In this document: one piece after another, positions 6,850-23,140 of the stretch
Layout of the letters: each line of letters opens with the position of its first letter
Numbering within the stretch: the first letter of the stretch is position 1
Assembly (NCBI GenBank): GCA_038874435.1
Contig: JAVZCK010000018.1
Location: 1 to 40,105, forward strand
Source: Thermoplasmata archaeon
Lineage (GTDB): Archaea; Thermoplasmatota; Thermoplasmata; Lutacidiplasmatales; SKW197
Direction: 5' to 3'
DNA length: 40,105 bases
Translations under genes and position numbers: made by a program
Notes under the pieces: model-generated
Databases searched by the model: none
Told to the model about the DNA's origin: nothing
What the model saw: the letters and a program-made list of their open reading frames with translations, nothing else

Positions 6850-9800
6850 TTATTTCATATTTTGTGTGGTTATATAAAGAGGATCCCAAGAGAATGGAAT
6901 CCAGGGTGGAATGCGGGTTTGTCTGCTTAGGTTCATGTTTGAGGGTGTGACAAGGATATCTCCTCCGTAATATCTTATGTGATGTGTATGCCCACTGAAC
7001 ACGGCCTCAACCTTTCCGTTGGCGTTGATGAGATTAATAATATCCTCTCTGTAATTAGTGATACAACCGTGCCCATTTTCATACACAATCGGTGCATGTG
7101 TGAAGATGAAGTAATGGCCTATTTGGCTGTTCTGTGTACCCAATTCCGAATTCAGCCAGTTCCATTGAGAGGAAGTTAGACCTGTAACAGTATAGGAAGA
7201 CAAGTCAAGGCAATACCCTGTGTCTAAGCACAAAAATCGGTAGTTACCATAATCAAAACTATAGTAGTAACCTCCATAGGATAGTGGCCATGTGCCGTCA
7301 AACGCCCATGGGTCTAACCACAATCTATATAAATCAACCCATCGCCTATATGGGCTTCCAGGGACACTCCACGCACCCATGTAATAGTCTAACATCTCAT
7401 GATTTCCTGGTATTGTAAATACAGGGCAGTTTAACATCATAATTGCACCTTTGAATGCTTTCATGGAATTCGTATTATCAGTATCCTGAATTGGAATAAC
7501 CCCAAGAGACAACCCTCCCCAATCTATTAAATCACCTGTTATTACTACGAACTCTGGTTTCTCAAATATATTGATTCTGTTGATAATTGCACACAAGTGA
7601 GCGGTGTGGTAATCCGTGTCACTGCTGCCTGACCACTTGCTCCCAACATGGGTATCTGTTATCTGAATAATTTTGAATATGTTTTTATAGGGGAGTATTC
7701 CTAAACAATGCTTTTGAGTAATTGCTATTAAGCTCCCTCCATGAGTCACCCACACAGTTATATCGTACACCCCTTCCTGTGAACCTATTGGATTACATTG
7801 AATGTGCCAATTCTGATTTACGCTGTCATATGTTGTGCTGACTATGCTTACTGTATAGTGTGCACTACCATCGCTTTTCAATATTTCCACCACTTCAATC
7901 CTGTCCTGACTGAGCACGGATGGAGATAACACAATTTCAAAGTTTGTGTGTAAATTACAATCTACTATTGCAGGTCTTCCAGGTGAAGGGTACAGAATCG
8001 TTGGATTTGCTGGCGGAACTGTAGAAAGGTCTATGGGCCCATACAATTTATTATCTCCAGCTAAGTTCTCCCATCTCTCTATTTCTCCTGTTTCTAAATA
8101 TCTCTCCTCTGTTGTGAACCTACTGTTTACGGTGTCTATCTCAATTACGCGGTAACAAACTTGGCCCGTAATGTGCGAATTTGGTGCACTCCCCAAAAGA
8201 TATTCTATATAGTTAGAAATCCCATCAACATCCTCATCTTCTTTGCTATCCTCTCTCCTCGGATTTAATCCATTTTTCACTTCCCAACCATCTGGCATTT
8301 TATCTTCATCCGTATCCCATTTATCCACATCTGTGCCCACCTTTATTTCCTCCCAGTACCCTAACTCGTCTTCATCTTGGTCCTTACCACAAGACTCAAT
8401 ACTTACACTAATGCTTCCTATACTCCAACTGATATTCTCCCATTCTCCATCTCTTCTTTCTATTCCATTTTCAATTTGCCAGAAATATGTTTTTCCTTCC
8501 TTTCTTCCCCAGTACTTTATTGTTTTCTCGTCCTCTCCATACTTAAATTCAATTTCAAGAGGTAGCGACTCCACACCGTAATCATTCCTAAATGAAAAAA
8601 TCTCTTTTCTCTCTTTATTAACATTATCTATGGAAACTCTTCGGGTGTAATCGCCCACTTTAACAGTGTAGGAAATACCATACTGTGGTCCCCACTTGTA
8701 TTTCATCCTTACCCTAATACATTCATACCCTACAATAGGATTGATATCGTCTTTGTCATCAACATTGTCGTGGTCTGTATCCTTACCCCTGAGATTCTGA
8801 GGAATTCCTGTAAGACCAGGCATTTCTCCCACATTACAGATGAGTGGAGGATGGCCACCACCACCTCCACCACCAACCCCACCAGATGGTTCAAACGGAA
8901 ATGTTCTTGCCTTTTTCTCCATACTATCCAGCCAACCATCTCCATCAGTGTCTGAATTGTGCCAGGAAGAGGTAACATGCTGAGTGTAATATGGCCAATT
9001 AATAGGATTGCCTGGGTCATACTCTATACTCATCGGATACATATAGGTTAGCACATTCCATCCAGCTACTTCTTCCTCATCTGGTAAACCATCTCCATCA
9101 GCATCGTTTATCTTACCAACACTCTCTTTTACCACTGTCTTTCCGTTTATTGTTGCAGACACAGAAAACTTATACTCTACATTTCTTGCTAACCCAACAT
9201 TTTCTGGGATTTCATAACTTTGTATCTCTCCTGCCAATTCCACCTCCGTCTGGTAGATTACATTACTCCCTTCAATAACTCGGATTGCATATTGTATCTT
9301 TCCGACAACCCCAGGCATCTCCCACCACACCCTTACCCCATTCTCATCTCTTGCTGGCTCGTAATAGTCCTCTACCTGCAACACCGTGATTGCTGTTTCC
9401 GTTGTGAAACTGTGTGGCTGTTCTTTGCTACCATAACTAGCTGTGTATGTCTGACCATCTACCACTGTTGTTGCTACGATGTAGTAATCGTAGTCCTCTG
9501 CCGGATTTAGATGGTCCAGCACAACAGTGTGTGTTTTTGTGCTCTCTGCCTTGCTGGAGAGACCCCACCCATAGCCATCCCAATCTGGCTTGTAAATCTT
9601 CCACCAGAGCATTGTGTCTGTATTTATGTTCGTTTTCCAGGTAATGGTTGCACTGTTCTCTGTGGCAACTACATTTACATCATTAATCTGGATTTCTGGT
9701 ATGTTTAGTGGCCCAGAGACCTGCACATCACCTGCCTGAATGTAATACCTGTAATCAGTGTTTTTTGCAAGACCTGTAATTACATTCGTTGAATGACGGA

Positions 9801-12800
9801 TTTTTTGTGTGTAGTAATCCCTCTCATTGTATGTGCCAACTAAATTTCCATTCTGGCGAATTGTTACTGTGTTTTCCGCTGTTGGCACTGTCGTGTCCCA
9901 CTCAAATCTCACTCCGTCTTGCAGAATGTCTACCACCACATTGGTTATGGAGAGAGAAATAATAAAGGTTTTGGAGGCTGTGCCTGAAGTGCCATCTTCT
10001 GCTGTGGCTTTAATTATAATTGTGTACTCCACATTCTGGGAAAGTCCAGAGAGTGAAAGTTCAGTATCCCCAAACAGTAACTTTGTTTCATATTCACAAT
10101 CTGTAGATGTGTATAGCCAGGCATGGATATCCTGGTATGCATGAGCACCCCAGTTAATATAGAATTCCACCGTTGCAGTGCTTATTGAAGTGATTTTCAC
10201 CTGGTAAATCGTTACCTGCGGTCCTTCCATGCTCGCCATAATATCCATATTTGTTTCCTTCATTATGCCAATTGCTGTGACCTCACTGACCCAGATGCCC
10301 TCCGTCTTCGGCCTTATATCTTCTTTCATCTTCTTGACTGCTCCTCTTGTGTTCCCTGCTTCCAGCATGTTCGCAACTGCTTCATACTTATTATCCAGTG
10401 TATTCTTTTGCTGTGTTGCATTTCCGCTGAATGCAGTATCTGGCAATGCCAGAAGTGTCGTCTGAGCAGTTTCCACTTGCTCTGTTGCCTCAGGCACCCT
10501 ATCTGCATACCTCACAATTCCCTCTGCGCTTTTCATAAGCAACCTTGGATTTCCGCTCAAATCCGTGCAGAGACCAATGGAAGTGTAGCCAGCGTATGGT
10601 GTACCATCACTGTAATACCCATAAATCTCGCCTTCATGCACATCTGTCACTTTTTGCCATAATGCCACATTTCTTCCAAAGCTATCATACTTCAAATAGT
10701 TTACATTCCAGTAATAATTCTCATTGCTCAAATAAATCACATGCACATTCTTTCTTGTGTCCAATCCAATCTTTGGCTCTTTCGCATTCCCACATCCAAA
10801 TGTGATTCGTTTCGTGTCCCAATTCTCGCCAGCATCCCTGCTGTATTTCATATAGAGCTGATAAAATCCAGTTTCATTGTCTGCATAAACAACCCAGATT
10901 TGTTTCCCGAAGGTAGCCACATCAAAACCATAGTAAGGACTGCCAGAAAGTGTGGCAATCTCCTTGCTCAGCATCCAGCTCTCAGTTTTCTCATAACACA
11001 GAATCCTGGAGGCCTTCATAAGCATCGTTTTCACACTGCAATATAGATTTCCATCCACAAATTTTGCCTTTCCTACTATTTTCTCATCACCGTAACCTAA
11101 GTTCACCCATGTCGGGTTTCCATCCAGCTCCCATACCCACTTTTTCAGACGAAAGTCATAATGCCACACCTCATTCCATTCATAAACTGCAAAACTATCA
11201 AATGCTGTCAGGAAGAAATGGAAATTCTGGAGCACAGGGCTGGAAACAGGGCTTTCCGAACGCAAAACAAATCTCACGCTGAATTCTGTGGTTTCTGTTG
11301 TGAAATTGTACACCTGCCCTTTTTCTATTCTCGCAAACTCGTTTTCATAACTCACTGTTGTAGAAATTGTGCCAGTGCCATACCAGTGTGGTGTAAATGT
11401 GATTGGAAACACCTGCCCTGCAAAATGATATTCGCAACTCCCTTCCTCATAGTACACATAAATTCTTTCCAGCACGCTCCATTTCACCGCACTCACAGAA
11501 TAAACTGTAAAATTATCAAAATAGCCAGCACCGTATGCATCTGCTGGATTGCCTTCAATGTCTCCAATCCTTATTTTGGCTGTAAGCACCTCTGGCCTGT
11601 AATACATCCCGCAATACACATTATCAAGAAATACATAGAAGTAAGGCACAGAATACACAACCCGGAGGTTATGCCATTGATTCCGCCAGATGTATGTGAT
11701 AAATGAATAGTTGCCTGAACTATCCGCATACATCATGCTCCCGTACTCATCACTCCTCGAATAATTCCTCTCCACACCAATTCCCCAGTCCGCACCTTTC
11801 AACAACCAGAACATCTGGTTATCATAATAAGGCAACATGAAATCAATTGAGAATTCAAATTCTGCAATTCCAACTGGTGGCAAGAAGCTGGGTGATTCTG
11901 CGTAGCCATAGCCAGAGCGATTTGCCCTTGTGTCTATGTGCAATTTGCCTCTGGTGATTTCTACAACATTTGCTTCAGAGACATTCAAATACCAGCCATC
12001 AACACTCTCAAATCCAGTGGAATAAAGCATATTTCCTCGCCTGTAATCAACAATTTTGTAGTAATACACTGCATCCTTTGCACCAAATTCATCTACACCA
12101 CCAAACAAATACACATCCACTCCCTCGCGAATTCTACAGGCACTCAAGCCAAAAACTGGCTCCTCAAGCACTCCCACAATCTTTGGTTCTTCCCATGGAT
12201 AGCTCCAGGGTTGGAAATAGCATTCTATGATTTTATCTGTTATTCCATGTGGAGTCCTCCCACCAAATATGTAGAGCGTGTTTCCAGCCATGTAATAACC
12301 CATATCGGCAACACCAAATGGCAACGCTTTGCTTTCTATGTAACTCATCCCATCATGCATCCAGATTTTGTAAGTTTTGTTTACAAATTGCTCACCTGAA
12401 AGCCCTCCAAAAATGAAGAGGCAATCGCCGTTCATCACAGCACCCATGTGCGAATAATTGGTTGGAATTTCCCAGATTCTTGGTTTTACCTCAATGCTCA
12501 TTGTATCAAATCTGAATCGCCAGAATTGGTCTATGCCACCAGGCAAAATCCAGACCGCATCAAATGGAATTATTGCAGAGCCCTGATGGACTGCTGCAGC
12601 ACCAAATGCCATCGGTTGGGGGAGCTTGAGTGGGAGCATTTCTATTGTGTAGTTTTGAAGCCAGAAACGAACAATTCCATCTGTATAATTCCCGAGTTCG
12701 GTGCAACCACCTGCAATGTAAACCGCATCTCCGTATGCAAAAGCCACATGACCAAAAAAAGGGTACGGGAGAAAGCCAACAACCTCAATTTTCATTGTTG

Positions 12801-13542
12801 ATGTATCAAATCTGTAGATTTCTATTTTACCATGGATGCCATCCTCTGTGCCACCAAAAATGTAAATGGAGTTGCAATAAGCAACAGTTTGGGTATAGTA
12901 AAGTCCAGAGAGTAATGCAAGTGGATGTTTCGCCAGCATAATTCCATCACCACTTACCTCAGCGTTCTCCAGCAAGAACTGATTCTGATTTGGATACACA
13001 GAAAGCTCTGTAAGATTCTGTAAACCAATCCTTGCAGTTGCATAAGCAGTTTCTTCACTCTCAATCCCTGTGCAGTTCACATACACACTTGGATTAATCC
13101 CATAGCCAATGTATGCTGTTTGCCAGGAGTAGGTGGAGGTTTTGCTGTAATAAACATAGGTGGAGTAATTGGCAAGTGTGTAGGCAATGAGATGCCAGCA
13201 ATTGCTTAATCCATAATCCAGCGCAATTACTGGTAAAGGAGAGTTAACTAAAACTATTTTGTTCAAATTCGTTGCACTTGTGAAATTTGCATAGCACAAT
13301 GTGGTGTTATTCTCAACCCAGACCGCATGGTATTTGCTACCATCAGTTTTGATGACAGGCCCAGCTGTAACATTGCCAGAAAGTTGGAATGGCAATGACC
13401 ATGCGACTGCTGGCTCTATGGAGTTCGCACCAGTTGTATTCTCAATGTTCCCGTTTCCTGCCTTTGCACCCTCTGCATTCTCTCCCTGAGGAAGATGAAA
13501 ACACAGCACCAAAACGATTAATATTGCTAACAGTTTCTTCAT
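6850..13542 (-). CDS. Giant secreted kelch/LamG/Fn3 metallophosphoesterase (MPE1)
   Basis: About 2,230 residues from the ATG at 13542. I chose this over an in-frame start 18 codons upstream because the protein then opens directly with the signal peptide (MKKLLAILIVLVLCF) and the ATG lies about 29 bases from a TATA box. Order of domains: kelch-type beta-propeller (about 197-484; six blades ending in GG, such as IYIFGG, VYIAGG, LFIFGG, VYLFGG); concanavalin/LamG-like domain (about 504-680); a second beta-propeller-like stretch (about 700-1010); several Fn3-like domains (about 1110-1460); acidic Ca-binding repeats (DADGDGLPDEEE near 1470 and others near 1720-1760); and a C-terminal phosphoesterase (about 1950-2230) with DTH, GDLID, GNHE, THAP and GHTH. 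No C-terminal membrane helix. First gene of the operon; substrate unknown. Confidence 0.88.
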   Translation of the reverse strand: MKKLLAILIVLVLCFHLPQGENAEGAKAGNGNIENTTGANSIEPAVAWSLPFQLSGNVTAGPVIKTDGSKYHAVWVENNTTLCYANFTSATNLNKIVLVNSPLPVIALDYGLSNCWHLIAYTLANYSTYVYYSKTSTYSWQTAYIGYGINPSVYVNCTGIESEETAYATARIGLQNLTELSVYPNQNQFLLENAEVSGDGIMLAKHPLALLSGLYYTQTVAYCNSIYIFGGTEDGIHGKIEIYRFDTSTMKIEVVGFLPYPFFGHVAFAYGDAVYIAGGCTELGNYTDGIVRFWLQNYTIEMLPLKLPQPMAFGAAAVHQGSAIIPFDAVWILPGGIDQFWRFRFDTMSIEVKPRIWEIPTNYSHMGAVMNGDCLFIFGGLSGEQFVNKTYKIWMHDGMSYIESKALPFGVADMGYYMAGNTLYIFGGRTPHGITDKIIECYFQPWSYPWEEPKIVGVLEEPVFGLSACRIREGVDVYLFGGVDEFGAKDAVYYYKIVDYRRGNMLYSTGFESVDGWYLNVSEANVVEITRGKLHIDTRANRSGYGYAESPSFLPPVGIAEFEFSIDFMLPYYDNQMFWLLKGADWGIGVERNYSRSDEYGSMMYADSSGNYSFITYIWRNQWHNLRVVYSVPYFYVFLDNVYCGMYYRPEVLTAKIRIGDIEGNPADAYGAGYFDNFTVYSVSAVKWSVLERIYVYYEEGSCEYHFAGQVFPITFTPHWYGTGTISTTVSYENEFARIEKGQVYNFTTETTEFSVRFVLRSESPVSSPVLQNFHFFLTAFDSFAVYEWNEVWHYDFRLKKWVWELDGNPTWVNLGYGDEKIVGKAKFVDGNLYCSVKTMLMKASRILCYEKTESWMLSKEIATLSGSPYYGFDVATFGKQIWVVYADNETGFYQLYMKYSRDAGENWDTKRITFGCGNAKEPKIGLDTRKNVHVIYLSNENYYWNVNYLKYDSFGRNVALWQKVTDVHEGEIYGYYSDGTPYAGYTSIGLCTDLSGNPRLLMKSAEGIVRYADRVPEATEQVETAQTTLLALPDTAFSGNATQQKNTLDNKYEAVANMLEAGNTRGAVKKMKEDIRPKTEGIWVSEVTAIGIMKETNMDIMASMEGPQVTIYQVKITSISTATVEFYINWGAHAYQDIHAWLYTSTDCEYETKLLFGDTELSLSGLSQNVEYTIIIKATAEDGTSGTASKTFIISLSITNVVVDILQDGVRFEWDTTVPTAENTVTIRQNGNLVGTYNERDYYTQKIRHSTNVITGLAKNTDYRYYIQAGDVQVSGPLNIPEIQINDVNVVATENSATITWKTNINTDTMLWWKIYKPDWDGYGWGLSSKAESTKTHTVVLDHLNPAEDYDYYIVATTVVDGQTYTASYGSKEQPHSFTTETAITVLQVEDYYEPARDENGVRVWWEMPGVVGKIQYAIRVIEGSNVIYQTEVELAGEIQSYEIPENVGLARNVEYKFSVSATINGKTVVKESVGKINDADGDGLPDEEEVAGWNVLTYMYPMSIEYDPGNPINWPYYTQHVTSSWHNSDTDGDGWLDSMEKKARTFPFEPSGGVGGGGGGGHPPLICNVGEMPGLTGIPQNLRGKDTDHDNVDDKDDINPIVGYECIRVRMKYKWGPQYGISYTVKVGDYTRRVSIDNVNKERKEIFSFRNDYGVESLPLEIEFKYGEDEKTIKYWGRKEGKTYFWQIENGIERRDGEWENISWSIGSISVSIESCGKDQDEDELGYWEEIKVGTDVDKWDTDEDKMPDGWEVKNGLNPRREDSKEDEDVDGISNYIEYLLGSAPNSHITGQVCYRVIEIDTVNSRFTTEERYLETGEIERWENLAGDNKLYGPIDLSTVPPANPTILYPSPGRPAIVDCNLHTNFEIVLSPSVLSQDRIEVVEILKSDGSAHYTVSIVSTTYDSVNQNWHIQCNPIGSQEGVYDITVWVTHGGSLIAITQKHCLGILPYKNIFKIIQITDTHVGSKWSGSSDTDYHTAHLCAIINRINIFEKPEFVVITGDLIDWGGLSLGVIPIQDTDNTNSMKAFKGAIMMLNCPVFTIPGNHEMLDYYMGAWSVPGSPYRRWVDLYRLWLDPWAFDGTWPLSYGGYYYSFDYGNYRFLCLDTGYCLDLSSYTVTGLTSSQWNWLNSELGTQNSQIGHYFIFTHAPIVYENGHGCITNYREDIINLINANGKVEAVFSGHTHHIRYYGGDILVTPSNMNLSRQTRIPPWIPFSWDPLYITTQNMK
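9327..9525. repeat. Direct repeat within Fn3 coding region, copy 2
   Basis: Partner of 5563-5761, lying inside MPE1 and encoding the same Fn3 segment. High DNA identity here, against weak similarity in the adjoining Fn3 and Ca-repeat regions, points to recombination between the two MPE genes. Confidence 0.9.
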
Positions 13543-13560
13543 AATTATAAGTAATGTTTT

Positions 13561-13576
13561 TTTTTTATATATAAAG
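13561..13576 (-). promoter_or_regulatory. TATA-box promoter of the MPE cassette operon
   Basis: The minus strand reads CTTTATATATAAAA, a near-ideal archaeal TATA box centred about 29 bases from the ATG at 13542. That spacing predicts a leaderless transcript, in agreement with the absence of a Shine-Dalgarno before this ATG. It is the only clear promoter I see for the whole 13.5 kb leftward block. Confidence 0.65.
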
Positions 13577-13771
13577 TTTTCGCTTGAGTTTGGCATTTTT
13601 TGTATCTCTTAATGAGTTTGCATGGCTTGTCTCAATCTGATTGTTCATGAAACTGCATCAAAAAATGTTGTAAGCAATTGAAAATCCACTTTTTGGTTCC
13701 CTTGTGTTCATTTGCGAAATCTGTATTTTGCGAGTTCTACCTTAAGTGGGAGTTATAGTCAAGTGCAAAAG

Positions 13772-13825: not shown

Positions 13826-16800
13826 ATGAGGTTTAGAATTACGCTCCCCTTGGTTCTCCTCCTTCTCATACCTCTCCATGCTGCAACAGCCACCACACCC
13901 AACACAATCACAATAGATGGTTCCCTTGTAGAATGGCAGGCAGATGAGCTCATGGGAATTTCAAACGAAAAAAAACTCTATCTCACATGGGATGCTCAAG
14001 CCCTCTACATTGGCTGGAATGGAACCGATTTCGGTGTTGAGGGGGACCTCTTCATTTACCTAAATACCACGGCAGGAGGTAGTTTTGCAGGCAAGGACTG
14101 GTATGGGATTCACACCCTGCCCTTTGAAGCTGACTATCTTTTCTGGGTGGAAAACGGGGCACAGAGCACAAATTATGGACTTGATAAATACGCTAATGGC
14201 TGGACCACTGTAAGTTTCACAGGGCAAACCTACATCGGCTGGAGTGGAAATCCAAACACAGAAATCAAAATTCCGTTTTCAGACATTGGTATTCCAACTA
14301 CGCTCTCTCTTCTTGTCTTTGCTCAGTGGGAAGAGGCCCAGAATGTCTGGGCAGCATTTCCAACAAACAACACACCTGTTGGTTCTGGCCCTGAGACATT
14401 TACATACTACTACCAATTCCCACTCACAACCTCAATTTCACCAAACGCTCCCAACTACATAATGCAGAGCACAACAAACGATACGCAACCACCAATGGTC
14501 AAATTCATTCAGCCACTGGAAAACGAAGTCATAACCCTGAGCTTCTACAACATCACAATTGAGGCAACTGATAACACAGGGATAAAAAGCGTTGAGGTTT
14601 CAATAGACAGCAGTGCCTTCCAGCCCTGCCCAAAATCTGGAAATTACTACATCTACCAGTGGAGTATTACTACTGAAGGCAGCCATACACTGAACGCGAG
14701 GGCAACGGACATAGCAGGAAATACTGCCTCTGCTATTGTTAACTGCACATTCAAGCGGGAAAGTAACCCAAACGCAATAAAACTTGCGATAATCTGGCAC
14801 ATGCATCAGCCAATGTATAAAAACATGGCAACAGGGAGATACGAGCTACCCTGGACAAGGGTGCATGCAGTTCAGGAATACCTTGACCATCCACTCATCC
14901 TCCAGAAGTATCCAAATGTGAAGGTCATTTACAACTTCGTGCCTTCCCTTATGGAACAAATCGAAGACATAAATAAATCTGGCTATACAGACCCGCACTG
15001 GGAGCTTGCACTCAAGGAGAACACCCAACTCACACTTGAGGAGCGAAAGAAAGTCCAGAAGGAGTTTTTCTGGCTCGCGGCATGGCAGTTCAGAGACACG
15101 GATAATGCTAACAAGCGCTACAAACAACTTTCAGAGATTGTGGATAGTGGAAGAGATTTGAACGACCAGGAACTACTTGACTTGAAGGTGCTTTACTTTC
15201 TCCTCCAGATTTCCAAGCCGTATGTAAAGGGAGAATTTTCTGGAGTTTCTGGCGACCCTGAACTCTGGGCATTGCGAAATAAAACAGGAAATTACACAAA
15301 ATCAGACCTTGCCCTCGTTCTTACCAAACAGAAAGAAATTGCTGATAAGGTGCTTCCGCTCTACAAACAGCGACTTGATGCTAACCAGTGTGAGATTTCC
15401 ACAACGCCTTACTACCACCCAATCCTCCCCTTGCTTCTGATGGATAACTGGACGGGTTCAATAAGTAACATGAAAGTTGTTAAAGGCGTCTGGCGAGAAG
15501 ATGCATTGACACATTTAAGAATGGCGAGAGCGAAATACAGTGAGGTATTTGGCACAGAACCAGTTGGGCTCTGGCCCTCTGAAGAAGCGGTCTCTCCTGC
15601 TGCAATTGAGGTTATCGCAGATACAAATTTCACCTGGCTTGTGACAGATTCAAGAATCATTGACAACACCCTGGAGCCAATGGGCATAGATGTAATAAAC
15701 CAGAATGCAGGCGACTATGTGGTGAATCCACCTGCACTCTACAAGCCCTATGTGGTCAACATAAACGGGAAAAAAGTCGTTGCGGTTTTCAGAGATAGAA
15801 CAATCTCTGACAGAATTGCGTTCCAGTATGGACACATGGATGCAGATGCCGCCGTTGAGGAGTTAATTAAATACATCTATGAAATGGGCAACCGACTGCC
15901 AGATAAAAGAAACTCTGTAATTACAATTGCCGCAGATGGAGAAAACTGGATGTTCTGGGATGATGCTGGCTACGAAAACAACGGTAGAACATTCCTGGAA
16001 AAACTTTATGCCAGGTTGAATGTTGAGACGGGCATAGAGACCGTGCTCCTCAAGGACTTCCTTGCTAAAAATCCACCGAATACTGAAATAAAGACCATCG
16101 CAACTGGCTCCTGGATAAATGGAGATTTAGAAACTTGGAGAGGTGAACCAGATGAAGATATTGCCTGGCAACGGCTTGCAAGTGCCAGAAAGGCGGTTGT
16201 GGACTACGAAATTTCACATCCGAACTCCAGCGAGGTAAGGAAGGCCTGGGAGAGTATTTATCCGGCAGAGGGAAGCGATTGGTTCTGGTGGTATGGCACA
16301 GACCAGACCACAAGAGACGAGGACATGTTTGATCGGCTCTTCAAGATTCACCTTGTGAATGTTTACAAAGCGATAGGGCTCCAGCCCCCAATAGAACTCA
16401 CAGCAGAACTCCGCACTCCGAAGGAGCCGGAGAGAGTGGGAAAGAGTGGACTCTTCAAACCGGTGCTGGACGGGACAATGAACCAGACGGAATGGGCTGA
16501 TGCTGCTGGATATTTGTGTGTGCCGAACAACCTTGGAATTGAAGAAATAGCCATCGGTGCAGATACCCAGAACATTTACATTGGATTGAAAATGCCATCT
16601 GAGAATCTCATTGAAAATTCCGAAATCCTGGATTTGAGCATTTACATTTCATCTCCTAGTCCTGCAGACATGAATGTACCAATGACCAATTTTCTACCCC
16701 TTGGTGGCAATGACTCCCTCGGCTTCCCGATAAAATGGAAGGCGAAAATTTTGCCTGAAACACGACTGGAAACTGGTGAGACAAAAATAGCAATTTTCAG

Positions 16801-18100
16801 AGCCGGCTCAGAAGGACGCTGGATTTTCTCAATTGCTTCGCAAACCAGTTATCTTGGAAAAAATGTAGAGATTGCACTCCCAATAAGTTCAATTGAGACC
16901 AATCCAAGGCAGAAGGTGTTTATTGCAGTGGTGAGTGCTCATCTGGTTAATTCCGTATGGCAGAATGCAGAATACATATCAGGCAGAGAGCCAATTGAAC
17001 TCTTGATTCCCTCAGATATGGCAAGAGAATACATTCTCAACATCACATCCAGCCCACTTTCTAACCCATCTGGAATTGTAGAGGAGGAGCACGATGATTA
17101 TGGCCCAGGCACTTACGAATATCCTACCTCGAACGAGATGGCACCCAACACTGGCTTATTTGACATCACAGCCCTCTACATCTACAACAGCACATCTGAA
17201 CTAATCTTTGAATTCCATTTCAGAGAGATGGGACTTGTGCAGGATGGAAAACCAATCTGGAATCCGCCCTACAATTTTCCGCACCAGATTATCAACATCT
17301 ACATAGATATTGACAGGAAAAACGGTTCTGGGAAAACGGAGTGCCTGGAAGGGGCCAATGCCTTAATCAGAGAGGACTTTGCCTGGGAAGTTGCGGTGTC
17401 TGCAAGGGGCTGGGATGTGTATGCAATGCTTGGCGATGAGAAAGTTCGCACGGGCGTGACTGCAGATGCTGACTGGAATAGCACCGCTAAAAAATGGGAT
17501 AACAACACAGTTTATGTGCGCATCTCACTTTCCTTGATTGGCCAGAATTTCCGAGATTATGGTTATGTGATTGTTGTTGGAAGCCAGGATGAGTATGGGC
17601 CTGGAAAATGGCGGAGTGTGAATGCCCAGAAAGAGCGGTGGAGGTTTGGTGGAGGCACCGATGGCGATGTTGACCCAAACATAATTGATATGATTGTGCC
17701 TGCTGGCTATTCGCAAAAAAATCTTTTGAACTATGATGCTGGTACAGGCAAAAAAGCTGTGCTCGTGGGAATCACGCTCCCTGCAAAATCGCAGGATGGC
17801 CCGCAGAACCAGACCACTGAAAACAAGACGGAAGAAAGTGGGCTGAGCAAAATTCTGAAAGATTTTACGCCGGCCATTCTGGTTTCCTGTTTCGGCTTTG
17901 CCGCTCTCTTCGTTGAGTTTGGGTTGAGGCATCGCAAAAAAAAGAGAAAGCTAAATGTAAAAACTTTAGTGGAGGAGCGATTGAAGAAAGGGTCTGAGTT
18001 AGATGAGATTGAACTTGAACTGCAAGAGCGTCTTCTGTGCGAGGAAATCAGTGAACTGGAGTATAGGGAAGGAATGCAGATGTTGGAGGGAAGAAAATGA
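13826..18100 (+). CDS. Membrane-anchored GH57 amylopullulanase-like glycosidase
   Basis: About 1,424 residues. The ATG at 13826 is preferred over one 38 codons upstream because it begins the signal peptide (MRFRITLPLVLLLLIPL) and sits at leaderless spacing from the TATA-like box. Order: CBM/DOMON-like module opening with TITIDGSLVEW (about 25-210), Ig-like domain (about 220-310), GH57 catalytic barrel (about 320-720) with IWHMHQP, the nucleophile region GLWPSEEA (about 581) and the acid region ADGENW (about 703), a second IDG-type module (VLDGTMNQTEW, about 880), a glucodextranase-C-like binding domain (about 1090-1310), one membrane helix (about 1347-1370) and a basic cytoplasmic tail. GH57 enzymes of this size usually cut alpha-1,4 and alpha-1,6 bonds in starch or pullulan. 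The stop overlaps the next gene as ATGA. Confidence 0.9.
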   Translation: MRFRITLPLVLLLLIPLHAATATTPNTITIDGSLVEWQADELMGISNEKKLYLTWDAQALYIGWNGTDFGVEGDLFIYLNTTAGGSFAGKDWYGIHTLPFEADYLFWVENGAQSTNYGLDKYANGWTTVSFTGQTYIGWSGNPNTEIKIPFSDIGIPTTLSLLVFAQWEEAQNVWAAFPTNNTPVGSGPETFTYYYQFPLTTSISPNAPNYIMQSTTNDTQPPMVKFIQPLENEVITLSFYNITIEATDNTGIKSVEVSIDSSAFQPCPKSGNYYIYQWSITTEGSHTLNARATDIAGNTASAIVNCTFKRESNPNAIKLAIIWHMHQPMYKNMATGRYELPWTRVHAVQEYLDHPLILQKYPNVKVIYNFVPSLMEQIEDINKSGYTDPHWELALKENTQLTLEERKKVQKEFFWLAAWQFRDTDNANKRYKQLSEIVDSGRDLNDQELLDLKVLYFLLQISKPYVKGEFSGVSGDPELWALRNKTGNYTKSDLALVLTKQKEIADKVLPLYKQRLDANQCEISTTPYYHPILPLLLMDNWTGSISNMKVVKGVWREDALTHLRMARAKYSEVFGTEPVGLWPSEEAVSPAAIEVIADTNFTWLVTDSRIIDNTLEPMGIDVINQNAGDYVVNPPALYKPYVVNINGKKVVAVFRDRTISDRIAFQYGHMDADAAVEELIKYIYEMGNRLPDKRNSVITIAADGENWMFWDDAGYENNGRTFLEKLYARLNVETGIETVLLKDFLAKNPPNTEIKTIATGSWINGDLETWRGEPDEDIAWQRLASARKAVVDYEISHPNSSEVRKAWESIYPAEGSDWFWWYGTDQTTRDEDMFDRLFKIHLVNVYKAIGLQPPIELTAELRTPKEPERVGKSGLFKPVLDGTMNQTEWADAAGYLCVPNNLGIEEIAIGADTQNIYIGLKMPSENLIENSEILDLSIYISSPSPADMNVPMTNFLPLGGNDSLGFPIKWKAKILPETRLETGETKIAIFRAGSEGRWIFSIASQTSYLGKNVEIALPISSIETNPRQKVFIAVVSAHLVNSVWQNAEYISGREPIELLIPSDMAREYILNITSSPLSNPSGIVEEEHDDYGPGTYEYPTSNEMAPNTGLFDITALYIYNSTSELIFEFHFREMGLVQDGKPIWNPPYNFPHQIINIYIDIDRKNGSGKTECLEGANALIREDFAWEVAVSARGWDVYAMLGDEKVRTGVTADADWNSTAKKWDNNTVYVRISLSLIGQNFRDYGYVIVVGSQDEYGPGKWRSVNAQKERWRFGGGTDGDVDPNIIDMIVPAGYSQKNLLNYDAGTGKKAVLVGITLPAKSQDGPQNQTTENKTEESGLSKILKDFTPAILVSCFGFAALFVEFGLRHRKKKRKLNVKTLVEERLKKGSELDEIELELQERLLCEEISELEYREGMQMLEGRK

Positions 18101-19329
18101 AGACAGGTGTGGTCGCTGTTACTGTGATTCTTCTTGTGGCTACCGTTTTCTATTTTGCTTTTGCTACACAGACCAGCGGAGTTGAAAAACAGGAACGAAT
18201 TGTGCTCTGGCACACCTTTGCAGATAAGGAAAAAGATGTGTTTCTGAAAATTGTGGAAAGCTACAGAGCCAGAGCTGGAATTGAGATTGATGTGCAACAG
18301 CAGGACTATTCAAGTGCGGTCTCAAAATTCATTGCCCATGCGTCTGCAGGTAACCCCCCAGACATACTGAGAGTGCCGAATGACCGCCTCGGAGAACTTG
18401 CAAGCAAAGGTTATCTTGAGCCCCTCAACCAGTTTATTTCCCCAGCCCTGCTTTCTCAATACTATCCTGAAGCAATACGGGCAATGGAATACGATGGAAA
18501 ACTGTATGCTTTGCCCGCAAGCATTGACTGTCTCATGCTCATCTACAACAAGGACATTTTTGACATGAATGGGCTGGAATACCCGTCTGAGAATTGGAGT
18601 TTAGAAAAGGTTGTTGAAACAGGGAAAAAACTTACGACGAGCGAGCACTTCGGATTCGTTTTTCCAGTCCAGATTTCTTATTGGTATTTTCCTTTCATGC
18701 TTGGTTTCGGAGGCAAAATTTTTGATGAGAATGGGATGCCTGAGGTAAATTCCTACGAGGCGGTGAGAGCTGCAGAATACATTGTTAACTTGATGAAAGT
18801 TGCGAAGATAATGCCAGACACACCTGTGGATGAACTCAAAATGCTCACCCTTTTCCAGCAGCAGAAGGCAGCAATGATTGTTTGCGGCCCCTGGAAAATT
18901 CCAGAAATTAGAGATGCAGGAGTGAACTTTGGAATGTGCCCATTACCGCTGATTGAGGAAACTGGCAAGAGGGTTTCACCACTTGTTGGGTATAAAGGGT
19001 ATGCAATTTCAAAAGATTCAAGGCACAAGCTGGAGGCATTCAAGTTCATTACCTATCTCACAGGTGCAGAGGCCTTGGTAAAATTCTGCATTCCAACCAA
19101 CACAATGCCTGCAAACAAAAAGGCAATGGAGAATGCCACACTTGCAAATCTTGCAGTGGTCAAGGCGGTAAAGAAACAGTTCGAGTATGGCACACTGTTT
19201 CCCACTGCCCCGCTCATGATTGTTGTTGGAGAAAAGGTGAGTGATGCACTTGCTAAAATTGTGCAAGGGGAAGAGCCACAAAAAGCATTGGATGAGGCAC
19301 AGGCACTGATTATGAAGGAGATGGGATAG
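18097..19329 (+). CDS. malE: Maltodextrin ABC transporter substrate-binding protein (MalE-type)
   Basis: A 410-residue family-1 extracellular solute-binding protein. An N-terminal hydrophobic segment (about 5-25) lacks a lipobox cysteine, so it is an uncleaved anchor or a signal peptide. The mature part begins RIVLWHTFADKEKDVF, followed by the hinge-type sequence LYALPASIDCLMLIYNKD typical of MalE-like proteins, and FQQQKAAMIVCGPWKI. It would capture oligosaccharides released by the GH57 enzyme and hand them to the permease. The start overlaps the upstream stop by 4 bases and the next ATG is 1 base after its stop, so the genes are co-translated. The sugar is inferred from context; maltose/maltodextrin is most likely, trehalose possible. 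Confidence 0.88.
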   Translation: MKTGVVAVTVILLVATVFYFAFATQTSGVEKQERIVLWHTFADKEKDVFLKIVESYRARAGIEIDVQQQDYSSAVSKFIAHASAGNPPDILRVPNDRLGELASKGYLEPLNQFISPALLSQYYPEAIRAMEYDGKLYALPASIDCLMLIYNKDIFDMNGLEYPSENWSLEKVVETGKKLTTSEHFGFVFPVQISYWYFPFMLGFGGKIFDENGMPEVNSYEAVRAAEYIVNLMKVAKIMPDTPVDELKMLTLFQQQKAAMIVCGPWKIPEIRDAGVNFGMCPLPLIEETGKRVSPLVGYKGYAISKDSRHKLEAFKFITYLTGAEALVKFCIPTNTMPANKKAMENATLANLAVVKAVKKQFEYGTLFPTAPLMIVVGEKVSDALAKIVQGEEPQKALDEAQALIMKEMG

Positions 19330-19330
19330 A

Positions 19331-22033
19331 ATGAAGGCACTCAGTTTTGCTCTCGGTCTTCTTATTCTCCTCTCAGGGTTTGCTCAAGCTGTGAGTGTGG
19401 ACAACACTGGCAGTTATTCCTGCAAAATTGTCTGGGATTCAAAGGGTGCTGGAGAGTATAGAATTCTACTCATCGGGAATGAGACAACAGTTTACGATAC
19501 TGTGTTCGCAGACCTGCGTGCTGATGAACTGGCTCTTTATGAAACCTACTTCTTTGAAGTGGAATTTACATGGCAAAATGGCACGAAGGCAAGAGCTGTT
19601 GCGATAAACGGCAGTGCCCATGTCCCAGCTGATGCAAAAACCATTGCCTACAACCTCACAGGGCTTTCACCCACAACAAACTACAGGTTGGAAGTGAGAC
19701 ATGGAAATGATGTTGAAAGCATTGAGTTTACAACACTTGCAGAGGTTGTCCAGCTTCCGAAAAACGACCTGAGTGTTTATGCTGTGCTTGCAGTCGTTGT
19801 TGGTTCTTTTGCACTTCTGATTGGCTGGCTTGCAAAGATGGAAAAGAAAAAGTTGAGAAGTGCCTACATTTACATTGCCCCTGCATTGCTCGGGCTCGTA
19901 CTGTTGACATTTTACCCTGTGCTCTATGGTTTCTTTCTCTCCTTCACCGACTACTCTCTTTCCTATAGCCAGGAATACAATTTCGTTGGACTTGAGAATT
20001 ATCTGAATGTGCTTTTCACCCCTGATTTCTCGCTCGTGCTCACCACCACAATTATATGGACTGTGGGTTGCGTGGCTTTGCATGTTCTGATTGGGATTTT
20101 CCTCGCGGTTCTTTTGAATAGGAAAATAAAAGGAAGAGTGGTTTATCGAGCAATCCTCTTGCTGCCCTGGGCTGTGCCCTCCTACATTTCTGTGCTGACA
20201 TGGCGAAGCATGCTGGAATATGGCGGTGCACTCTCAACACCGTTTAACAGTTTCCTTGGCACAAACATTGACTTTCTCAATTCAATGCCCTGGGCTCTAG
20301 TCGCTGTGATAATGGTGAATGTCTGGCTCGGTTTTTCCTACATGATGATGGTTTTCAGTGGTGCACTGCAAGGAATTCCTGAGGAACTTTACGAGGCAGC
20401 GGATGTGGATGGATTTTCAAGATGGCAAAAATTCCGCTACATTACTTTGCCTTTGCTCAAGCCGGCCATAATTCCCGCTGCATTGCTTGGCTTCATTTGG
20501 ACTTTCAACATGTTCAATGTGATTTACCTGCTCACTGGAGGAGGGCCAGTTGGAAAGGTGGGTGTGAGCGCTGGTTCAACCGACATTCTGATAACTTTTG
20601 TTTATGACCAGGCATTTCTTTATTGGAGGATTGGGTTTGCTGCTGCCTACTCTGTTGTTATCTTCATGATGTTGCTTGCCTTCTCAGTAATCTATCTGCG
20701 TGCTGGAGGCGGTGGAGAAAGCGTTTACTTCACTGCTAGAAAGAACTCGTGGCTTTCCGCAGAAGTTGGAACAAGGATTGTGCTTTACGCAGTGGGTGTA
20801 GTTTATCTAGCCGCATTTCTCGGGATTGCTTTCGCAGGTACAAACTTTGCTGGCATTCATTATCAAAATCTGCTCGGAATTGGTTTTATCTTCTCTGCCC
20901 TGCTGATAGCACTGAAATATAGAGAAGGAATTGCCATTGCCAAGCTCTTTGCGTTATTTGACTTCATTGTGTCGCTAGCAGTAATTGTCTGGTATGCTAC
21001 AGTGAAACCTGCAGAAATTGTGGCTGGAGTAAATTTGATGCTGTTTGCAGATGTTGTTGTGCTTTATCTGACAGGCAAAATCTGGTTTGAAAAGAGTTTT
21101 GGAGCTGCAGAACCGATAGAGCGGATGCTTGCATTACCGAAGAGAGGTTTAACAAAAATCGGGGAGGTAATTGGAAGCATAAGAATAGAGATGGGGATAA
21201 GGAAAAAGAAGCTGGTTGAGGATGCAATAGTGCACTTGATTCTCCTCCTCTTCTCAATTCTTGCACTCCTGCCAGTTGTAGGAATAATCGGGACATCGCT
21301 CTGGCCTGGGAATGTGCGAGTTTCGCTCGCAGTTCCCTCTGCAGTAAGCATGGAGCACTATACCCATGTGCTTTATGAAACCCAATTCTTTATCTGGCTG
21401 AGAAATAGTTTGCTGGTTGCTGGGGGCACAACCATCCTCGGAATTTTACTTGCTACCACTGCTGCATATGCGTTCTCAAGATTCAATTTCAGAGGCAAAA
21501 AAGGGTTTATGCTCTCCTTCCTTGTGGTCCAGATGTTTCCAGGCGTTATCATCCTCATTCCATACTACATTCTGATGCGTCAGCTCGGACTTGCTAACAC
21601 ATTTATTGGGCTGATTCTGGCTTATGCGGTTACTGCCTTGCCTCTCGCTGTCTGGATGATAAAGGGTTTCTTTGATACGATTCCGCCAGACCTTGAAGAG
21701 AGCGCAATGGTGGATGGTTGTGGGAGAGTAAGTGCGTTTTATAGAGTTGTGCTTCCGCTTGCAAAACCGGCAGTTGCAGTTGTGGCTCTATTTTCCTTCC
21801 TTGCTGCCTGGAACGAGTTCGTGCTCGCCTACACCTTCATGAGCGATGAGAGCATGTACACACTCCCTGTAGGCTTAACATCATTCGTTGGTGCTGGTGG
21901 CATGCAGACCACTGCGGACTGGGGCAGTTTTGCTGCAATGTCAGTGCTTGTTGCAATTCCAGTGTGTTTGCTCTTCATCGTGTTCCAGAAGTATCTGGTC
22001 TCTGGCTTAACAAAAGGTGGTGTAAAGGGGTAG
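19331..22033 (+). CDS. Single-chain MalF-MalG fusion permease
   Basis: A 900-residue protein joining both permease subunits of a sugar ABC transporter. Order: signal peptide (1-20), Fn3-like extracytoplasmic domain (about 22-140), helix (about 146-165), MalF-type unit (about 175-460) with an EAA loop EELYEAADVDGFSRW near 350, a linker with about four extra hydrophobic segments (about 475-590), and a MalG-type unit (about 630-900) with its own EAA loop PPDLEESAMVDGCG near 786. Two EAA loops are needed to dock two MalK subunits, so one chain should form the full channel. Normally MalF and MalG are separate. The N-terminal Fn3 domain could contact the binding protein or the anchored glycosidase. 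No internal stop or frameshift is seen. Confidence 0.9.
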   Translation: MKALSFALGLLILLSGFAQAVSVDNTGSYSCKIVWDSKGAGEYRILLIGNETTVYDTVFADLRADELALYETYFFEVEFTWQNGTKARAVAINGSAHVPADAKTIAYNLTGLSPTTNYRLEVRHGNDVESIEFTTLAEVVQLPKNDLSVYAVLAVVVGSFALLIGWLAKMEKKKLRSAYIYIAPALLGLVLLTFYPVLYGFFLSFTDYSLSYSQEYNFVGLENYLNVLFTPDFSLVLTTTIIWTVGCVALHVLIGIFLAVLLNRKIKGRVVYRAILLLPWAVPSYISVLTWRSMLEYGGALSTPFNSFLGTNIDFLNSMPWALVAVIMVNVWLGFSYMMMVFSGALQGIPEELYEAADVDGFSRWQKFRYITLPLLKPAIIPAALLGFIWTFNMFNVIYLLTGGGPVGKVGVSAGSTDILITFVYDQAFLYWRIGFAAAYSVVIFMMLLAFSVIYLRAGGGGESVYFTARKNSWLSAEVGTRIVLYAVGVVYLAAFLGIAFAGTNFAGIHYQNLLGIGFIFSALLIALKYREGIAIAKLFALFDFIVSLAVIVWYATVKPAEIVAGVNLMLFADVVVLYLTGKIWFEKSFGAAEPIERMLALPKRGLTKIGEVIGSIRIEMGIRKKKLVEDAIVHLILLLFSILALLPVVGIIGTSLWPGNVRVSLAVPSAVSMEHYTHVLYETQFFIWLRNSLLVAGGTTILGILLATTAAYAFSRFNFRGKKGFMLSFLVVQMFPGVIILIPYYILMRQLGLANTFIGLILAYAVTALPLAVWMIKGFFDTIPPDLEESAMVDGCGRVSAFYRVVLPLAKPAVAVVALFSFLAAWNEFVLAYTFMSDESMYTLPVGLTSFVGAGGMQTTADWGSFAAMSVLVAIPVCLLFIVFQKYLVSGLTKGGVKG

Positions 22034-22039
22034 ATAAAA

Positions 22040-23140
22040 ATGGCAGAAGTGGTGCTTGAACATGTGTGCAAGAAATATGGTTCGTTTGTGGCTGTGGATG
22101 ACTTCAATCTGACAATTCCACATGGAGAGTTCTGCGTGCTTGTCGGGCCTTCTGGCTGTGGGAAGACAACAGTGTTGAGGATGGTTGCGGGTCTTGAAGA
22201 TGTCACGAGCGGAAAAATCTGGCTTGATGGGAAGGTGATTAATGAGTTGCCTCCAAAAGACAGAGATATTGCAATGGTTTTTCAGAGTTATGCACTTTAT
22301 CCACATCTGAGAGTGTATGACAACATAGCGTTCCCGCTGAAAATAAGGAAGATGCAGAAAAAGGAGATAGAGGAGAGGGTGTTGCGGGCTGCAAAGATTC
22401 TCGGGATTGCTGAGCAGTTAGATAAAAAACCAGCAGAGTTAAGTGGTGGACAGAGACAGCGGGTGGCAATGGGTAGAGCGATTGTGCGGGAGCCAAAAGT
22501 GTTTTTGTTTGATGAGCCGCTGAGCAATCTTGATGCAAAAATGAGGGTGCAGATGCGAGTTGAACTTGCAAAACTCCATAAAATGCTTGGCACAACAATG
22601 GTTTATGTGACCCATGACCAGGTTGAGGCAATGACGCTCGGAGAGAAAGTCGTGGTGATGAACAAAGGGAAGATAATGCAGTTTGGGAAGCCAGACAAGC
22701 TCTATGATAAGCCAATGAATTTGTTTACAGCTGGTTTTATTGGCTCGCCCCCTATGAATTTTCTGAACTGCGTGCTTTCGCAGAAACCAGATGGGATTTA
22801 TCTTGTAAAAGATGATTTTAACTTGAGATTGCCTGATGGAGTTGAAAAGGTGATTGGGAACTTTGTTGGCAGTGAGGTTGTACTGGGAATAAGGCCAGAG
22901 GATATCTACGATAAGTTGTTTGCAGTTGGGGCGACGCCTTACAACACCTTCCGCATTCGTGTGGATGTGCGTGAGACGATTGGCTCTGATGTTTTCATTT
23001 ATTTCCCAATTGCAGGGACAAACTTTGTAGCTAGAGTTATGCCCAAATCAAAGGCAGAAAGTGGGCAGGAAATGGAAATTGTATTTGACACCCAGAAACT
23101 CCACATATTTGATAGAAAGACAGGAGATAGATTGTGGTAA
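22040..23140 (+). CDS. malK: Sugar ABC transporter ATP-binding protein (MalK-type)
   Basis: A 366-residue cytoplasmic ATPase that powers the upstream permease. Visible motifs: Walker A GPSGCGKTT (about 36-44), Q-loop in VFQSYALYPH, signature LSGGQRQRVAMGRA (about 134), Walker B VFLFDEP, D-loop LSNLDAK and H-loop VTHD. The C-terminal third (from about 240) fits the TOBE/OB-like regulatory region of the MalK/UgpC class, including LGIRPEDIYD. It starts 6 bases after the permease stop, with an AAAGGGG stretch upstream acting as a possible SD. Length and motifs are normal. Confidence 0.93.
   Translation: MAEVVLEHVCKKYGSFVAVDDFNLTIPHGEFCVLVGPSGCGKTTVLRMVAGLEDVTSGKIWLDGKVINELPPKDRDIAMVFQSYALYPHLRVYDNIAFPLKIRKMQKKEIEERVLRAAKILGIAEQLDKKPAELSGGQRQRVAMGRAIVREPKVFLFDEPLSNLDAKMRVQMRVELAKLHKMLGTTMVYVTHDQVEAMTLGEKVVVMNKGKIMQFGKPDKLYDKPMNLFTAGFIGSPPMNFLNCVLSQKPDGIYLVKDDFNLRLPDGVEKVIGNFVGSEVVLGIRPEDIYDKLFAVGATPYNTFRIRVDVRETIGSDVFIYFPIAGTNFVARVMPKSKAESGQEMEIVFDTQKLHIFDRKTGDRLW

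Follow-up and report, generated by a model that had tools for sequence, protein, structure and literature searches.

A conserved MalF-MalG fusion forms the single-chain permease of a putative alpha-glucan importer in Thermoplasmata

In the E. coli maltose importer MalFGK2 (PDB 2r6g and others), the permease subunits MalF and MalG are separate chains, as are SugA and SugB of the mycobacterial trehalose system LpqY-SugABC (PDB 7cad, 8hps, 8ja7). Two permease domains within one chain are found in FbpB (PDB 9j4r), ThiP and PhnU2, which belong to other substrate families. For the mal operons of Thermococcales, the accessible sections of PMC2246101 describe mal genes clustered with the gene of an amylopullulanase, a starch-cutting enzyme; malE, malF and malG are separate genes there and the enzyme gene is typically located between them and malK. 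Marine group II was described to possess starch and glycogen hydrolases together with one sugar permease annotation, and the accessible sections of that report mention no fusion (PMC6336850); the same applies to those of PMC11212667. Titles and opening lines of abstracts in the open-licence literature yielded no report of a natural MalF-MalG fusion or of a natural fusion of enzyme, binding protein and permease.

The window analysed here, a stretch of 40,105 nucleotides from a Thermoplasmata archaeon of the SKW197 lineage (contig JAVZCK010000018.1, assembly GCA_038874435.1), carries a tight mal operon of the order GH57-malE-malFG-malK (Table 1). The malFG gene is a single stop-free frame of 900 codons reaching from ATG to TAG, in which MalF and MalG are joined as claimed in a preliminary description of this DNA. 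Its start codon is located one base past the malE stop codon, and the malE start codon overlaps the stop codon of the GH57 gene at positions 18097–18100. The GH57 protein has hydrophobic segments at both ends and matched the Pfam families GH57 (3.8e-60) and Glucodextran_C (1.2e-53) when scanned from position 13829. The MalE-like protein scored 169 bits with the NCBIfam model GanS and 146 bits with MalE, both far under cut-off, and the MalK protein scored above the cut-off of the UgpC/MalK-type subfamily model (475 vs 432). The operon partners of the permease, an SBP_bac_1/8 binding protein and a MalK-type ATPase with an OB/TOBE domain, are those by which CUT1 importers are recognised. Just one further permease match, a distant one (E = 1e-6, 27%), was detected in the same genome, which is 95% complete; hence, no separate MalF or MalG stands in for either half. 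Divergently from the mal operon, the minus strand encodes a predicted surface protein of 2248 residues (positions 6850–13596), in which Fn3-like stretches and a phosphoesterase-like C-terminus can be recognised by eye.

Table 1. Coordinates of the mal genes and of the parts of the fused permease in the window, and of gene fusions in related loci.
Feature	Location	Strand	Evidence
GH57 alpha-glucan hydrolase, secreted, C-terminally membrane-anchored (Big_7, GH57, Glucodextran_C)	13826..18100	+	Pfam, hydropathy
MalE-like binding protein, N-terminal membrane anchor	18097..19329	+	SBP_bac_1 4.3e-41; hydrophobic segment 5-23
MalF-MalG fusion, 900 aa	19331..22033	+	ORF, Pfam, NCBIfam, orthologue alignment
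Signal peptide or N-terminal anchor, residues 1-20	19331..19390	+	hydropathy
Fn3-type outside domain, residues 21-142	19391..19756	+	sequence profiles; all-beta model, low confidence
Membrane segment linking Fn3 domain to MalF, residues 147-165	19769..19825	+	hydropathy
MalF-like permease core, residues 173-458	19847..20704	+	NCBIfam, alignment, solved MalF
EAA loop 1, residues 351-378	20381..20464	+	orthologue alignment
Joining region: four membrane segments and amphipathic, basic stretch, residues 459-628	20705..21214	+	AlphaFold2 model, hydropathy
MalG-like permease core, residues 629-900	21215..22030	+	NCBIfam, PDB search, model
EAA loop 2, residues 786-813	21686..21769	+	orthologue alignment
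MalK-type ATPase with OB/TOBE regulatory domain	22040..23140	+	ABC_tran 1.3e-33, OB_MalK 6.1e-13
GH57-MalE fusion in relatives, ~1790-1800 aa	L076:2864-8230, L077:2828-8236, L111:4731-10115
MalE-Fn3-MalF fusion in relatives	loci include L105-L107, L109, L110, L113-L118

Both permease units of the fusion proved to be complete, as had been proposed. Pfam BPD_transp_1 matched two stretches (E = 1e-37 for the protein), and the best NCBIfam models were MalG for residues 629–900 (205.6 bits) and MalF for residues 219–458 (178.4 bits); both scores fall short of the strict equivalog thresholds of these models (261 for MalG, 392 for MalF). A phmmer search against the PDB aligned SugB and MalG with residues ~632–900, and MalF and SugA with parts of residues 171–461. 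The two EAA loops lie where they had been placed before, near residues 350 and 786. Their motifs read E355-A-A-x-x-D-G361 ... LP374 and E790-S-A-x-x-D-G796 ... LP809, and E355, A356, A357, D360, G361, E790, A792, D795 and G796 are invariant among four aligned orthologues. In the MalF half, a loop of 25 residues (199–223) takes the place of the large P2 loop. Among nine residues which we take to be the maltose contacts of E. coli MalF, five are identical in the fusion (S284, N330, L333, G334 and Y337), and four are changed (Y325 to W280, S433 to G387, N437 to T391 and N440 to M394). The AlphaFold2 model was good for the MalG part only (block means mostly 74–94); here, SugB was the best match (Z 24.6, rmsd 2.9, 263 residues aligned), and E. 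coli MalG gave Z values of 22–23 with 38% identity. As the full-length input alignment consisted of MalG rows only, the MalF half was poorly modelled, with pLDDT values mostly <50 in this half and in the joining region.

A trivial explanation for the fused frame would be an assembly or sequencing error joining two neighbouring genes, which is conceivable for a contig derived from a MAG in a class where separate genes are the norm. At nine of nine junctions inspected in families f19 and f31, the TGA of malF is followed nine bases on by an in-frame malG start, and one error at such a site could mimic a fusion. However, another Thermoplasmata MAG of SKW197 (L003) has the same operon and the same fusion with 84% identity, and three genomes of family f15 (G277, G297 and G409) likewise read straight through the region around 20700–21200, where, according to the preliminary description, a stop codon or frameshift would have spoken against the fusion. 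In G277 and G297, the fused protein shares 47% identity with that of the window; locus L025 (G002) equals L003 at the DNA level and the two were counted as one. Moreover, the cores are separated by 170 residues and not merely by a lost stop codon between abutting cores, and the methionine near the start of the MalG part (~residue 620) is a leucine in L003. An artefact can therefore be regarded as practically negligible. The dN/dS values of the permease cores (0.016 for MalF and 0.028 for MalG, window vs L003) indicate strong purifying selection. Judged by these sequence comparisons, the conservation of the fusion is far beyond chance, and the fusion is real, conserved and functional-looking.

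The preliminary description had proposed a survey of Thermoplasmata, and this revealed that the fusion is not a general trait. The full-length form was found in 4 of 400 genomes of the class (G000, G002, G277 and G297), i.e. in two families, and most genomes of the class have separate genes. Within the order (106 genomes), it was restricted to G000 and G002; within the order of G277 (117 genomes), it occurred in G277, G297 and G409, all members of genus g73, at least five other genomes of which gave no match. In none of 1489 plasmid records did a match at a single site span 80% of the query, a threshold that a bacterial fusion devoid of arm and joint could still escape, since it would cover only ~59%. 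Two-half frames of 612–656 residues in f19 and f31 were considered as a second type of fusion and rejected, because all nine junctions inspected consisted of the malF TGA, GGNG and an in-frame malG ATG, that is, of separate genes. In these nine genomes (L056–L062, L064 and L067), malF stop codon, ribosome-site-like GGNG and malG start codon stand in one frame with fixed spacing, and some of the pairs came out as one open frame in the genome search.

About four additional hydrophobic segments had been noticed between the halves, and hydropathy analysis located them at residues 483–501, 509–527, 534–552 and 563–581. The AlphaFold2 model shows, at low confidence, helices at residues 479–502, 507–527, 531–558 and 565–590 and a shorter fifth one. 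The charges of the loops fit a topology in which the chain crosses the membrane four times between the cytoplasmic ends of MalF and MalG, so that both cores can keep their usual orientation. Apart from the signal segment, no part of the protein is less conserved than the joining region: identity amounts to 67% in the four segments and 47% in the following stretch vs 96% and 93% in the cores, and between the window and L003 dS is saturated in the four segments (dN 0.20). The low conservation, together with a length that differs between f1 and f15, would also fit a chain which is made whole and then cut in the joining region, with separate MalF and MalG forming the working complex. We consider such a cleavage quite unlikely, as the number of membrane crossings is even in both families, which lets an intact chain orient both halves normally, and as a conserved internal start is absent.

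The origin of the joining segments was approached by comparison with the sister group f49/f57, in which the unfused MalG has an N-terminal extension with 3–4 hydrophobic segments. The four extra segments may therefore represent an ancient N-terminal portion of MalG and not a purpose-made joint. A homologue of them was not detectable: hhalign comparisons with the f49/f57 MalG extension gave P values of 0.24 (f1), 0.61 (f15) and 0.42 (all), and global alignments scored as for unrelated membrane stretches, with reversed sequences being equal or better. Similarly, the joining regions of f1 and f15 gave P = 0.067 in hhalign and a global alignment not above control.

At the N-terminus, a signal-like hydrophobic segment (residues 3–21) is followed by ~125 residues outside, and the Fn3 domain ascribed to this arm before was borne out by sequence profiles. 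The isolated window domain matched Pfam Fn3 (PF00041) with E = 0.0025 and 18.4 bits, and the whole protein with 13.7 bits, both under the cut-off of 25. The f15 orthologues at L076 (31.1 bits) and L111 (30.4 bits) passed this cut-off; the third f15 orthologue, L077 (20.6 bits), and L003 (16.8 bits) were under it, and the domain of L105 had no Pfam Fn3 match. When a domain profile of 36 rows was searched against the PDB, engineered and natural Fn3 structures ranked first (best E = 1.4e-4), and 5 of its 36 members matched fn3 at E ≤ 1. This profile omits 10 of 46 cut regions, namely L025, identical to L003, and L127, L143, L108, L145, L134, L142, L144, L119 and L146, in which MalE and MalF are encoded in separate frames and the N-terminus of MalF is less clearly alignable; consequently, the Fn3 profile rests on fused proteins. 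A structure model built from two sequences was all-beta with a mean pLDDT of 55. Foldseek searches with this weak ectodomain model returned nothing at E ≤ 0.001, and the best matches were mixed beta-sandwich proteins. At the level of sequence, the assignment as an Fn3-type domain is well supported.

Other neighbouring parts of the system are fused in relatives. In all three f15 genomes with MalFG (G277, G297 and G409), the GH57 enzyme and MalE form one chain with the order signal, Big_7, GH57, Glucodextran_C, membrane segment, short basic loop, membrane segment and MalE (Pfam run on two of the three chains). This is what would result from joining the two genes of the window, each of which is anchored at the facing end. 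When 400 genomes of the class were searched with the fused enzyme, 28 matched at E ≤ 1e-40, and the enzyme was joined to MalE in G277 and G297 only. The unfused GH57 C-terminus in the window (~17927–18100) is a basic cytoplasmic tail beyond the anchor, at the place where f15 has the short loop into MalE. Directly before the GH57-MalE fusion, two f15 loci (L076:1137-2873 and L111:3025-4761) encode a secreted, C-terminally anchored protein of ~580 residues, which had no Pfam match (L076 scanned) and the start of which resembles that of the enzyme by eye.

A search of the phylum (389 genomes) gave 56 genomes at E ≤ 1e-60, 43 of which belong to f49/f57, two families of a different class that probably represents marine group II. 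Most MalF frames of this group comprise ~830–945 residues, and MalG is separate. Classification of the 43 loci with profiles built in this analysis revealed MalE fused to the N-terminus of Fn3-MalF in 31 genomes (29 whole, 2 cut at the contig 5′ end); the remaining 12 comprise 10 with separate frames and 2 uninformative ones. Pfam confirmed SBP and permease in one chain for all four fused f49/f57 proteins scanned. The Fn3-type domain stands between MalE and MalF in the fused proteins, although the domain profile used for this group (six seeds, two of them from f49/f57) missed it in some. At L142, an unfused MalF begins right after the MalE stop codon with a signal-like segment of its own, as in the window protein. 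L134, one of the 10 loci with separate frames, looks like a frameshifted MalE-MalF fusion, and the separate MalE of L108 (5121-7082) matches the metal-binding MopE motif of Pfam and extends C-terminally beyond its binding domain. Beside the MalE-MalF operons of L105 (12518-15241) and L106 (10367-12631), a secreted, C-terminally anchored alpha-amylase with an AMPK1-type glycogen-binding module is encoded instead of GH57.

Gene order and fusions are colinear: GH57-MalE-MalF-MalG. The fusion of three neighbouring pairs in related lineages suggests physical association by the domain-fusion argument, with the reservation that neighbours also fuse most easily. The earlier idea that the outside arm might dock the binding protein gained indirect support, as the 31 fused f49/f57 relatives have MalE attached covalently to the upstream side of the domain. 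Fn3 domains are common spacers. The arm could thus be a passive spacer or stability element without docking, the fusions of relatives reflecting nothing but gene adjacency, and the low conservation of the domain (11–27% identity between the window and rows other than L003) agrees with this. Its dN/dS of 0.10 (window vs L003), its retention in f1, in f15 and in the majority of the fused f49/f57 proteins, in every case immediately before MalF, and the fusion of three different pairs speak against it. A purely passive arm seems plausible but short of probable.

In a four-gene tree of MalE, MalF, MalG and MalK (33 rows, MalE missing in 4 and MalK in 2; 17 of the 43 f49/f57 loci), f1 and f15 form one clade (97/94), f49/f57 stand apart (100/100), and f19, f31 and f3 are placed outside. 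Quick single-gene trees of MalF and MalG, which took in 19 of the 43 f49/f57 loci, show a three-way split among f1, f15 and f49/f57 within one group (88 and 94), f1 and f15 being joined by the concatenated tree only. Because the four-gene tree unites these two families, the simplest account is a single MalF-MalG fusion before the f1/f15 split, after which GH57 and MalE were fused once in f15; in f49/f57, MalE and MalF were fused on one or more occasions.

The window very probably encodes a CUT1-type importer of alpha-glucan oligosaccharides with a single-chain MalFG core, which is probably tethered to the binding protein and the surface enzyme. The fusion, its domain order, the operon, the conservation and the alternative fusions of neighbours in relatives were observed; from these we infer the substrate, the activity and the role of the Fn3-type arm. 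The GH57 enzyme with Glucodextran_C points to alpha-glucans, and MalE, MalFG and MalK point to import of the pieces. The surface GH57 enzyme would cut alpha-glucan, the anchored MalE would capture the released oligosaccharides, and the MalFG chain would transport them into the cell, as the transmembrane core of a type I importer of the CUT1 family in which two copies of MalK, encoded by the adjacent gene, supply the energy. It is probable that the Fn3-type domain of the N-terminal arm keeps the binding protein close to the pore, either by holding it or as a spacer. Because GH57 and MalE are separate genes in the window's organism, their tethering there is proposed by analogy with the relatives. 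A single-chain double permease for another ligand than starch sugars appears unlikely. Although the binding protein is slightly closer to the galacto-oligosaccharide binder GanS than to MalE, and four of the nine presumed maltose contacts differ, the operon contains the GH57/Glucodextran_C enzyme, which is covalently fused to the binding protein in f15, and the f49/f57 operons adjoin an alpha-amylase with a glycogen-binding module in both such neighbours scanned.

For the importer of alpha-glucan oligosaccharides, the fusions of other pairs in relatives suggest that enzyme, sugar catcher and importer act as one unit. One can speculate that starch uptake in several Thermoplasmatota proceeds through a single tethered row GH57-MalE-Fn3-MalF-MalG, in which cut fragments are passed directly to the importer, lineages having fixed different joints by fusion and the Fn3 arm acting as a hinge between binding protein and pore; this picture is tentative and may well be too far-reaching. 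In a naturally fused MalFG, the two halves necessarily pair 1:1, and the single chain is a simpler object for studies of structure and mechanism. The colinear fusions of enzyme and binding protein, binding protein and MalF, and MalF and MalG constitute a testable case for physically coupled extracellular digestion and uptake in these archaea.

With E. coli MalFGK2, the system shares the MalF and MalG halves, the EAA loops, the MalK-type ATPase and the MalE partner, whereas the fusion lacks the large P2 loop and possesses an Fn3-type arm and four extra segments before MalG. The permease cores of LpqY-SugABC are similar in length and likewise without P2, but that system has no Fn3 arm. FbpB, ThiP and PhnU2 resemble the fusion in having both permease domains in one chain; they also have no Fn3 arm, and the window protein is not a member of these equivalog families (PhnU2 68 of 593, ThiP 30 of 788). 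MalG1 and MalG2 of Thermotogales carry a large N-terminal addition, which, according to the accessible sections of PMC2246101, is hydrophilic, ~500 residues long and of unknown function, and they are not fused to MalF. In OpuA and GlnPQ, as far as described in the accessible sections of PMC11065425 and PMC8025302, binding domain and permease are covalently linked, which is also the case in the f49/f57 relatives, but these transporters belong to other families and the MalE of the window is unfused. Single-chain double permeases are thus already known; MalFG is a new version of them, with colinear fusions of the neighbouring parts in relatives.
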